64,000 nt of DNA from Aphelocoma coerulescens (Eukaryota; Chordata; Aves; Passeriformes; Corvidae): NCBI RefSeq assembly GCF_041296385.1, contig NW_027184083.1, positions 2,604,001 to 2,668,000 on the forward strand, in the 5' to 3' direction. Position 1 is the first letter of the stretch; each line of letters starts with the position of its first letter. Position numbers and translations under genes: made by a program. Under the pieces are notes generated by a model. That model did not search any database and was not told the DNA's origin. It was given only the letters and a program-made list of their open reading frames with translations. Below, piece after piece: positions 9,995-12,217 of this stretch.

Positions 9995-10287
9995 TGTTGG
10001 GGTCTCCTCCCCCCGCCATGTAGCCCTGGGAGAGGGGCCCTGGGGGGGAGGCACGGGGTTTCCCTGCCCCTGGTCGGCCTCGTTCCCCATTGGTTGGTTT
10101 GTGTTCCCCTGCGCGGGCAAAGCAGCTCGGGTCCTGTGACTGTGGCAGAGTCCCTCAGCAGAGCCCGGCCATGCGGCTGGGGAAATAAACATCTCTGAAA
10201 CATCTAGCAAGAATCCGTCCGTATATATTTATTTTCCACGGGACTCCTGGTTTGATATAGGCGTGTTGCAGTATCCCCACTGCAACA
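9995..10287 (+). mobile_element. 5' LTR of the cold-shock-domain element
   Basis: 293 bp, GC-rich, with an inverted CCAAT (attgg) near 10089 and AATAAA at 10184-10189. It acts as promoter if transcribed. Identical by eye to 11925-12217. Confidence 0.95.
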
Positions 10288-10405
10288 TAATGGTGGTAAA
10301 TTGCGAGCAGAACGATCCCCGATCCCTAAGCGACTTTGTGTGAGTAAACCCTGGAAACTTTGGATTCTTCTTCTTGGTTTTGTTTTGCTATTCCATATCT
10401 AAACT
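10288..10405 (+). promoter_or_regulatory. Leader with candidate primer site and splice donor
   Basis: After the LTR comes taa and then TGGTGGTAAATTGCGAGC (10291-10308), which starts with the required TGG but which I cannot assign to a tRNA. A possible splice donor GTGAGT is at 10340-10345. A T-rich stretch precedes the start codon. Confidence 0.45.
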
Positions 10406-11707
10406 ATGGAGGAACCGTGGGAAGACTCTTGGCTTTCAGAGCCGCATATGGACATTTATCTTAAACTTAAAATGATTCTTGAACAACGGTTTGTAAATTT
10501 TAGCTTGATTCAAGCTCAGAAAGAACTGAAACACTTCCTGGCATGGTTGTTTAAGAACTTTTTCTATGTTTCTTGGGATCTAATTCTTACCAAGAGCTTT
10601 TGGAAGACCGTTTGGACCCAGTTAATATTTGAGTCAAAATATATGCCGATGGAAGAATATTTTCGTGAATATTATTTAATAACCGAGACTGTTGAGCAAT
10701 GTCAGCTGTGTCCTGGCGAAGGGAAGCCTGGCTCAGGGACCGTGCGACCCAGGCCACGTGCACTGAGCGCTCTGCGAGCAGCAGCGAGACGGTTCCCGTG
10801 CGCGGGAGGAGCCACGCGGGCCACAGTGTCGGTGGCGGAGCGAGGCGCGGCAGGAGCGGCGCGGCCCGGCAGTGCCCGCCCGGCCCCGCGCAGCGCGTGG
10901 TGGAGCGAGCCCCGTGAGCGCCCGAACGAGAGGGGCGGCGCGCGGGCGGCGGCTGGCGGCGGCAGAGTGGAGCTGTGCCCAGCCGAAACGCGCGCTGGAG
11001 CAGGGCACGGGGGGGTCATCGCTTGGGGGCCTGGCCGAGATGCAGCGCCTGGCAATGGCAACGCAGCTGAGAGCAGAGGAGGCGACGCACGGAGAACGGA
11101 GCGGCGCGGCCCGGCCCGGCCCGCGCGGCCCCAAACGCGACCCTGGGAAAAGCGCGCCGATAATTCCAACACGGGAGCGACCGAAAGAGAGAGCAAAGAC
11201 ACAGCGAGACAGAAAACAGCAGCCACTCGGAAAAAGGAAAAGACCATAGTAGCTAAGATCTTAGGGACAGTGAAATGGTATAATGTTAAACAAAACTATG
11301 GTTTTATAACAAGATGTGATAACCAGCAAGACATATTCGTGCATAGAACTGCTATTAAAAAGAATAACCCTGAAAAATGCATCCCAAGCTTGGGAGATGG
11401 AGAGGTGGTGGAATTCAAAATCATACAAGGTAGAAAAGGGTTACAAGCATCGCAGGTCACTGGGCCTGATGGTGTTCCTGTAAAAGGCAGTATATATGCA
11501 AAAAATCGTAGTCATGTTAGACAATATCTCCATTGTAAACCCCCCCTACAGTCTCCCTTTCCTAATCCCACCTTTCCCTTTTACCCTATGTCCTATTACC
11601 CCCAGTGTATTCCCAATCCGTTTTTTCATCCATGGTTTCCCTCACAAACCCCTGCCTTTGCCAATTGTTTCCCCTACAATTCCTCTCCGATGCCGATGGG
11701 GGGATGA
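10406..11707 (+). CDS. Gag-like/Y-box fusion protein with cold-shock domain, 433 aa
   Basis: Intact ORF with a strong start context (A at -3, G at +4). Residues 1-100: acidic then aromatic and Leu-rich, predicted helical; the ELKHFLAWL ... SFWKTVWTQL pattern is reminiscent of retroviral matrix folds (inference). Residues 105-265: Arg/Ala/Gly/Pro-rich and basic, from CpG-rich DNA. Residues 283-365: Y-box-type cold-shock domain with KWYNVKQNYGFI and DIFVHRTAIKKNNP, then SLGDGEVVEF and VTGPDGVPV. The aromatic RNA-binding residues of the fold are kept (Trp291, Phe300, Phe311, His313). Residues 376-433: Pro/Phe/Tyr-rich tail. I estimate roughly 60% identity to vertebrate Y-box proteins over the domain. 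It is intronless, so it was captured from a spliced RNA. Likely role: binding or packaging RNA. Confidence 0.92.
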   Translation: MEEPWEDSWLSEPHMDIYLKLKMILEQRFVNFSLIQAQKELKHFLAWLFKNFFYVSWDLILTKSFWKTVWTQLIFESKYMPMEEYFREYYLITETVEQCQLCPGEGKPGSGTVRPRPRALSALRAAARRFPCAGGATRATVSVAERGAAGAARPGSARPAPRSAWWSEPRERPNERGGARAAAGGGRVELCPAETRAGAGHGGVIAWGPGRDAAPGNGNAAESRGGDARRTERRGPARPARPQTRPWEKRADNSNTGATERESKDTARQKTAATRKKEKTIVAKILGTVKWYNVKQNYGFITRCDNQQDIFVHRTAIKKNNPEKCIPSLGDGEVVEFKIIQGRKGLQASQVTGPDGVPVKGSIYAKNRSHVRQYLHCKPPLQSPFPNPTFPFYPMSYYPQCIPNPFFHPWFPSQTPAFANCFPYNSSPMPMGG

Positions 11708-11924
11708 AAAGGGGGAGGGAAGAGATTGAACCCTCTCCTGCCTCAGTTTCCCCACAGGCATGTCCAGAGAGTTCTGTCTCCCTTCTGTCAGCCCTAAGAT
11801 GTTCCCCAGAATCTGTTTGGACATTTAAAGACTCAGGAGGGTGGCTTGTTTTGTTTTGAAGCAGTTCTTGTTATGGTTATCCAGTTGTCTTCATTTTCCT
11901 TTTATTAAAAGGAAATGGGTGAGA
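11708..11924 (+). other. 3' untranslated region and polypurine tract of the cold-shock-domain element
   Basis: No reading frame. AAAAGGAAATGGGTGAGA at 11907-11924 abuts the 3' LTR and is a good polypurine tract. A CT-rich part follows the stop codon. Confidence 0.7.
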
Positions 11925-12217
11925 TGTTGGGGTCTCCTCCCCCCGCCATGTAGCCCTGGGAGAGGGGCCCTGGGGGGGAGGCACGGGGTTTCCCTGCCCC
12001 TGGTCGGCCTCGTTCCCCATTGGTTGGTTTGTGTTCCCCTGCGCGGGCAAAGCAGCTCGGGTCCTGTGACTGTGGCAGAGTCCCTCAGCAGAGCCCGGCC
12101 ATGCGGCTGGGGAAATAAACATCTCTGAAACATCTAGCAAGAATCCGTCCGTATATATTTATTTTCCACGGGACTCCTGGTTTGATATAGGCGTGTTGCA
12201 GTATCCCCACTGCAACA
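11925..12217 (+). mobile_element. 3' LTR of the cold-shock-domain element
   Basis: 293 bp, no difference seen from the 5' LTR. Followed by the GGTAGA duplication at 12218-12223. Its AATAAA (12114-12119) could terminate SNX2 transcripts, since both run in the same direction. Confidence 0.95.

Follow-up and report, generated by a model that had tools for sequence, protein, structure and literature searches.

A multi-copy endogenous retroviral element carrying an intronless Y-box-type cold-shock domain in the genome of Aphelocoma coerulescens

Knowledge of gene capture by retroviruses comes mainly from oncogene viruses, which are short-lived, and from a few endogenous retroviruses (ERVs). In the acute transforming retroviruses the host cDNA is often fused behind the start of Gag, as in the gag-oncogene fusions. 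Germline cases were described in crocodilians, where CrocERV29 and CrocERV31 captured the host mRNAs of KIT-ligand and nectin3, respectively, and occur in multiple copies; in the part of the source drawn on here they retain viral genes, KIT-ligand lying between pol and env and nectin3 standing in the place of env, and purifying selection is reported for the KIT-ligand open reading frame (ORF) of CrocERV29 (PMC4299795). Chicken ENS-1/ERNI (Soprano) is a multi-copy family of retroviral origin whose unusual ORF has 490 residues, and the available portion of its description gives 78 copies found (PMC3958431). Here, a 64,000-nucleotide stretch of the genome of Aphelocoma coerulescens (contig NW_027184083.1, positions 2,604,001 to 2,668,000 of the forward strand; this whole stretch is called the window) was analysed, which contains a 2.2 kb element with two long terminal repeats (LTRs) and one long ORF that includes a Y-box-type cold-shock domain (CSD).

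The element resembles the acute transforming retroviruses in being an apparently helper-dependent provirus whose own genes are gone and which harbours a host cDNA without introns. Unlike them, it forms a germline family of very many copies with selection acting across two deeply diverged subfamilies, and it carries an RNA-binding Y-box gene where they carry a growth gene. With the two CrocERVs it has in common a captured host mRNA multiplied in the germ line, and unlike them it has neither pol nor env. The multi-copy retroviral origin and the unusual ORF recall ENS-1, which was compared by description only; the available portion of that description names a coiled coil and an HP1 box and mentions no CSD (PMC3958431). 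The element's CSD is of the same type as those of YBX1, YBX2 and YBX3 and 60-71% identical to them, whereas the ORF is without introns and has the domain fused to other parts. No Y-box or cold-shock gene in an LTR element was found among the top listings of a literature search covering mostly freely readable, non-preprint papers, and the term 'cold shock' is absent from the main text of two papers on bird LTR elements (PMC6523648, PMC5006616). The capture of host genes is established, but as far as we have seen there is apparently no description of an RNA-binding gene that was captured and then maintained by selection in an element with a single gene and so many copies.

The initial annotation had reported an intact ORF of 433 codons (Table 1) whose residues 283-365 form a Y-box-type CSD, and both observations were borne out. 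In 1000 simulated interiors, built segment by segment as first-order Markov sequences with the segment composition of the window's element, the longest plus-strand ORF starting with ATG had 274 codons, and as none of the 1000 reached 433 codons a chance ORF was rejected. The domain was matched by Pfam PF00313 (residues 287-353, E 1.1e-20), and the top PDB sequence matches were Y-box proteins (human YBX2, zebrafish YB-1 and human YBX1, E 2.5e-34 to 7.5e-34, the best over residues 280-368). It was the only Pfam domain in the long ORF, the interior had no gag-pro-pol coding capacity, and a scan of IMG/VR with the ORF gave no match. Y-box proteins have an Ala/Pro-rich N-terminus and a basic-acidic C-terminal domain; the predicted product has neither and is a chimera holding a Y-box CSD rather than a Y-box protein.

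Copies were sought in the genome (1.33 Gb in 660 contigs) with three probes. The LTR gave 40 scored matches at 96-100% identity out of 3638 first-look candidates, the CSD-tail DNA 40 scored out of 1381, all 99-100% identical, and the N-terminal domain of the second subfamily, B, 150 scored places out of 1859, all of which matched; these candidate totals are not copy numbers. Among the B N-terminal-domain places, 122 had a stop-to-stop frame of 430 or more codons with no stop in the matched part and four had a stop, an intact fraction that is biased upwards since only the best-scoring places are included. A frame of exactly 467 codons was present at 75 of them, which suggests a recent burst (the frames were tallied by hand over 151 entries, one above the 150 scored).

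For closer reading 20 + 9 regions were taken, nine of the 20 having been picked for two LTRs close together. In all, 18 copies with paired LTRs were cut out, the window's included. Every one is flanked by a 6-bp duplication, as are L045 and the solo LTR of the window, and the two LTRs of a copy differ by 0 to 7 substitutions and at most 5 gap columns. The window's structure of LTR, ORF and LTR is thus not a single occurrence, the finding that would have told against the initial annotation, and an assembly oddity was also rejected, given the many copies and the separate duplication of each paired copy. A full-length open ORF is kept in 11 of the 18 (the window, L009, L010, L012, L014, L015, L018, L029, L031, L035 and L037) and is broken or deleted in the other seven (L011, L013, L016, L017, L022, L024 and L034), as is expected of dead copies. 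The remaining 12 regions contained LTRs without a full partner. Flanks were checked for nine unpaired LTRs (L030, L032, L033 and L036 not included), and the 6-bp duplications around seven of these mark them as solo LTRs; L026, L027 and L028, whose flanks are identical, are probably one duplicated locus. Five further B loci came from the N-terminal-domain search (L044-L048), four of them with open ORFs of 435-442 codons and the usual start, while L044 starts six codons later and has an ORF of 436 codons from its own start.

Separately, the N-terminal-domain match of L044 (C76:297800-305900) was seen to lie within a 2120-codon open frame reaching far upstream, three B copies stand in tandem at C35:8432493-8436660 and repeat every 1934 bases, as if LTRs had recombined with one another, and a CSD copy of the window's subfamily, A, is found at C22:2846950, no more than about 40 kb from host YBX1.

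Subfamilies A and B (the latter including L014, L029 and L045) have the same types of LTR, leader and 3' untranslated region (UTR), and their proteins are 63-64% identical in the CSD and 33-35% in the N-terminal domain. Compared with A, the copies L014, L024, L029 and L031 have LTRs 95-97% and 3' UTRs 94-95% identical; the LTRs of L044-L048 are 88-91% identical. An A-like tail end follows a B-like CSD in L014 and a B-like tail end is present in L024, so the subfamilies recombine. Such common cis sequences together with diverging coding parts would fit packaging by shared machinery. Ten CSD residues out of 87 are common to A and B and occur neither in host YBX1 nor in human YBX2, nor in host YBX3 as far as it is readable.

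In the host YBX1 gene (C22) three introns, with splice signals at GYGFINR, VHQ and GEK, divide the CSD into four exons; the YBX3 gene (C2) is broken at the same places where it is readable. All three YBX1 introns are missing from the element, which shows that its CSD came from a spliced mRNA. The initial annotation had argued from the introns of vertebrate Y-box genes to the capture of a host mRNA by a non-autonomous element, and this argument is now supported by the host gene itself and by the lack of a reverse transcriptase. Its estimate of roughly 60% identity agrees with the 60-61% measured between A and the host YBX1 CSD (65-69% for B). Synonymous sites are saturated in these comparisons (pS, the proportion of synonymous differences, 0.82-0.84), so the capture is old.

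In a DNA tree of 15 CSDs (six A, seven B and two host sequences), for which the bootstrap had not settled, A and B were split from host YBX1 and YBX3 with 100/99 support. A protein tree of eight CSDs clustered the host proteins (85/94) and left the placement of B open. The phylogeny proposed in the initial annotation sets the element apart from both host genes at the DNA level. Four residues of B, two of them also in A, match human YBX2 against YBX1, and one A residue is shared with YBX3 only; this may hint, and no more, at a YBX2-like, germ-cell-expressed source gene. Host YBX1 and YBX3 gene regions (the latter without the upstream exons) gave no convincing DNA match to the GC-rich linker, whose DNA has a GC content of 0.77 and an observed/expected CpG ratio of 1.05 over 10717-11140.

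A separate processed pseudogene inserted between the LTRs, which the initial annotation had named as the competing origin, was rejected, because the A copies keep an identical order of segments (with the exception of L017, which has an internal deletion). No internal poly-A tail was seen by eye in the window copy.

The initial annotation had supposed that the ORF was kept open through long divergence and had proposed comparing copies. Between the CSDs of A and B, synonymous divergence (dS) was 0.82-0.89 and nonsynonymous divergence (dN) 0.25-0.26, a ratio of about 0.3 (Fisher p 5e-5). Between their N-terminal domains, the proportion of nonsynonymous differences (pN) was 0.40 against a pS of 0.74 (p 3e-6), with synonymous sites near saturation. 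Within A (eight copies) pN/pS was 0.17 in the N-terminal domain, 0.82 in the linker, 0.48 in the CSD and 0.37 in the tail, and within B (eight copies) 0.42, 0.80, 0.25 and 0.32, respectively; these values were summed over non-independent pairs of open copies, broken ones being dropped. Compared with the linker, constraint is evident in the N-terminal domain, the CSD and the tail, and the contrast holds in both subfamilies. In ten A copies, nucleotide diversity by segment was not enough to tell coding and non-coding parts apart; the codon counts were. The fused protein was under purifying selection while the two subfamilies diverged and spread.

It could be argued that the captured ORF is a functionless passenger, open only through the youth of the copies, with a low dN/dS inherited from genes captured separately. 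The small differences between paired LTRs and the seven broken copies among the 18 would agree with this. A and B, however, share the tail and the ten derived CSD residues along with the fusion as a whole; their divergence (dS 0.8, dN/dS 0.3) therefore most likely arose after capture, and the selection most likely acted within the element. Within each subfamily, too, every part but the linker has a pN/pS well below 1. We regard a passenger as very improbable.

The element is a non-autonomous ERV2/ERVK-type LTR element, with LTRs and 6-bp duplications and without reverse transcriptase or integrase. As it encodes no reverse transcriptase, protease or integrase, these enzymes must be borrowed from elsewhere, and the length of the duplication points to an ERV2/ERVK-type integrase, a rule that has been applied to songbird LTRs in the part of the source used (PMC6523648). 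In our judgement it is likely that this is a helper-dependent ERV2-type element with a captured Y-box gene, and that its chimeric ribonucleoprotein (RNP) protein protects or packages the element's own RNA. The element's ancestor captured a spliced Y-box mRNA, and the gene is fused between an N-terminal domain of about 100 residues, which stands where Gag would be, and a tail rich in Pro, Phe and Tyr. LTR transcripts would be translated into the fused protein, whose CSD and arginine-rich linker may bind the element's RNA in cis and stabilise it. Carried by the N-terminal domain, with the sticky tail perhaps helping, this RNA would then enter particles made by an autonomous ERV, and the reverse transcriptase and integrase of that ERV would copy and insert it; the element would be a supplier of its own packaging or RNP factor and a borrower of enzymes.

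A paper that cites Mu 2013 and Li 2012 on this point reports that YB-1, the cellular relative, makes the genomic RNA of HIV and murine leukaemia virus (MLV) more stable and increases the output of virus or vector (PMC6040738). In the A protein the net charge is -6 in the N-terminal domain, +20 in the linker, +7 in the CSD and +3 in the tail, and an acidic first part followed by a putatively nucleic-acid-binding second part is the order found in Gag. A further step, which we put forward tentatively, is that in this lineage a host Y-box protein replaced the viral module that binds nucleic acids, leaving a minimal one-gene element making its own RNP coat or packaging protein; such a lineage would parasitise only the enzymes of autonomous ERVs and would have spread recently and widely in the host genome.

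The protein might instead act on host messenger RNPs and have no part in packaging, as a regulator or decoy that competes with germ-cell Y-box proteins and so frees LTR transcripts from translational masking or silencing. The CSD keeps its aromatic RNA-contact motifs, the equivalents of W65, F74, F85 and H87 being present in the A and B sequences compared (we take these residues to be RNA contacts of YB-1), and the loss of the basic-acidic C-terminal domain would also suit a decoy. Left unexplained, however, are the conservation of an N-terminal domain where Gag would lie and the more basic CSD, whose net charge is +7 in A and +5 in B (host YBX1, +2; human YBX2, +4), and we think a decoy unlikely.

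Several results weigh against a protein that packages its own RNA from behind a Gag remnant. The linker, which is assumed to take part in RNA binding, is nearly unconstrained (pN/pS 0.80-0.82), and seven of the 18 paired copies are broken. Among the loci read there was no autonomous partner with these LTRs. The N-terminal domain had no significant match among Pfam and PDB sequences, Gag profiles included. Viruses with a Gag_p10-type matrix have been present in this genome, as PF02337 matched 30 of the 67 candidates scored, and by hand comparison none of these 30 places overlaps a listed LTR, CSD-tail or B N-terminal-domain place.

By its position and pattern, we infer that the N-terminal domain would be a remnant of the parent's Gag matrix. 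Three comparisons of its structure models with PDB folds and predicted viral folds gave nothing significant, the models being too poor to count (predicted local distance difference test, pLDDT, 49 and 54); fold matches carry no weight either way at this confidence, so the missing Gag matrix is not evidence against Gag. A profile of the domain run against six-frame translations of all loci read and of the window found nothing convincing beyond copies of the element. The same lack of Pfam, PDB-sequence and fold matches, with that limit on the models, would also suit a domain derived from another host gene or from unconstrained sequence, in which case the element would be a multi-part gene carrier and not a gag-gene fusion; this is a possibility that we take seriously while holding it the less probable origin.

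Table 1. Features of the element and related sites in the window (UTR, untranslated region)
Feature	Position	Strand	Remarks
Left target-site duplication GGTAGA	9989..9994	.	matches 12218-12223 over 6 bp
Whole LTR element	9995..12217	+	2,223 bp; 1637-bp interior between LTRs
5' LTR, TGTTGGGG...CTGCAACA	9995..10287	+	293 bp; relatives found genome-wide
AATAAA poly-A signal inside LTR	10184..10189	+	second at 12114-12119; read by eye
Leader	10288..10405	+	93-97% match in A copies, 86-95% in B copies read
Primer-binding-site-like block TGGTGGTAAATTGCGAGC	10291..10308	+	TGG start, 3 nt past 5' LTR
Chimeric Y-box protein ORF, 433 codons	10406..11707	+	sole long ORF of interior
N-terminal acidic, probably helical domain, residues 1-104	10406..10716	+	Gag-matrix-like by position and pattern
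Arginine-rich linker, 173 residues	10717..11240	+	net charge +20; GC-rich, CpG-island-like; weak constraint
Y-box-type CSD, residues 283-365	11252..11500	+	intronless; Pfam and PDB sequence matches
Pro/Phe/Tyr-rich tail	11501..11704	+	net +3, no acidic residue; from composition and pN/pS
3' UTR	11708..11924	+	93-98% identity in A and B copies with full-length 3' UTR
Imperfect purine tract at 3' UTR end	11907-11924	+	AAAAGGAAATGGGTGAGA in window
3' LTR	11925..12217	+	293 bp; 100% identity to 5' LTR
Right target-site duplication GGTAGA	12218..12223	.	pairs with 9989-9994
Uninterrupted target site GGTAGA in related ERVL copy	16837..16842	.	occurs once
Solo LTR of the element's LTR family	37711..38002	+	84% identity; GGATAG on both sides

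The LTRs of the window's element end in TG...CA, and the identity noticed by eye in the initial annotation is complete on alignment. The GGTAGA duplication it had described was also found, and the element lies in an antisense ERVL-like copy for which a related copy (14900-18093) is unbroken across the insertion point; as GGTAGA occurs only once in this continuous copy, the state before insertion is visible within the window. The purine tract it had noted is present and imperfect: AAAATAAAATGGGTGAGA is found in eight of 11 other copies with the same end, and in the other three C replaces T before GGG. A commoner form of the primer-binding block, TGGTGGAGATTTGAGGGC, occurs in 12 of the 18 paired copies. 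The 18-nt block varies more from copy to copy than its flanks, as it should if tRNA primers serve as its template anew each time. The first ten bases of the block may fit tRNA-Ala, but one pattern search for a tRNA 3' end fitting the commoner form gave 0 matches. Rfam over 9900-12300 returned three weak matches below gathering scores, which were taken as chance.

A young ERVL-like provirus on the minus strand (14900-18028) has an open pol frame of 1042 codons and is flanked by near-identical long repeats. Nested ERVs are arranged like the layers of an onion over 2819-30970, with the pairs 2819-3282/30505-30970 (98.9%), 7383-7934/22623-23174 (99.5%), 13840-14765/20260-21187 (99.7%) and 4200-4577/24537-24914 (95.8%).

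The element keeps a captured RNA-binding gene under selection, through deep divergence and into recent spread. Whether a selfish element can profit from carrying its own RNA chaperone thereby becomes testable, and the family may give the germ line new intronless Y-box-like genes.

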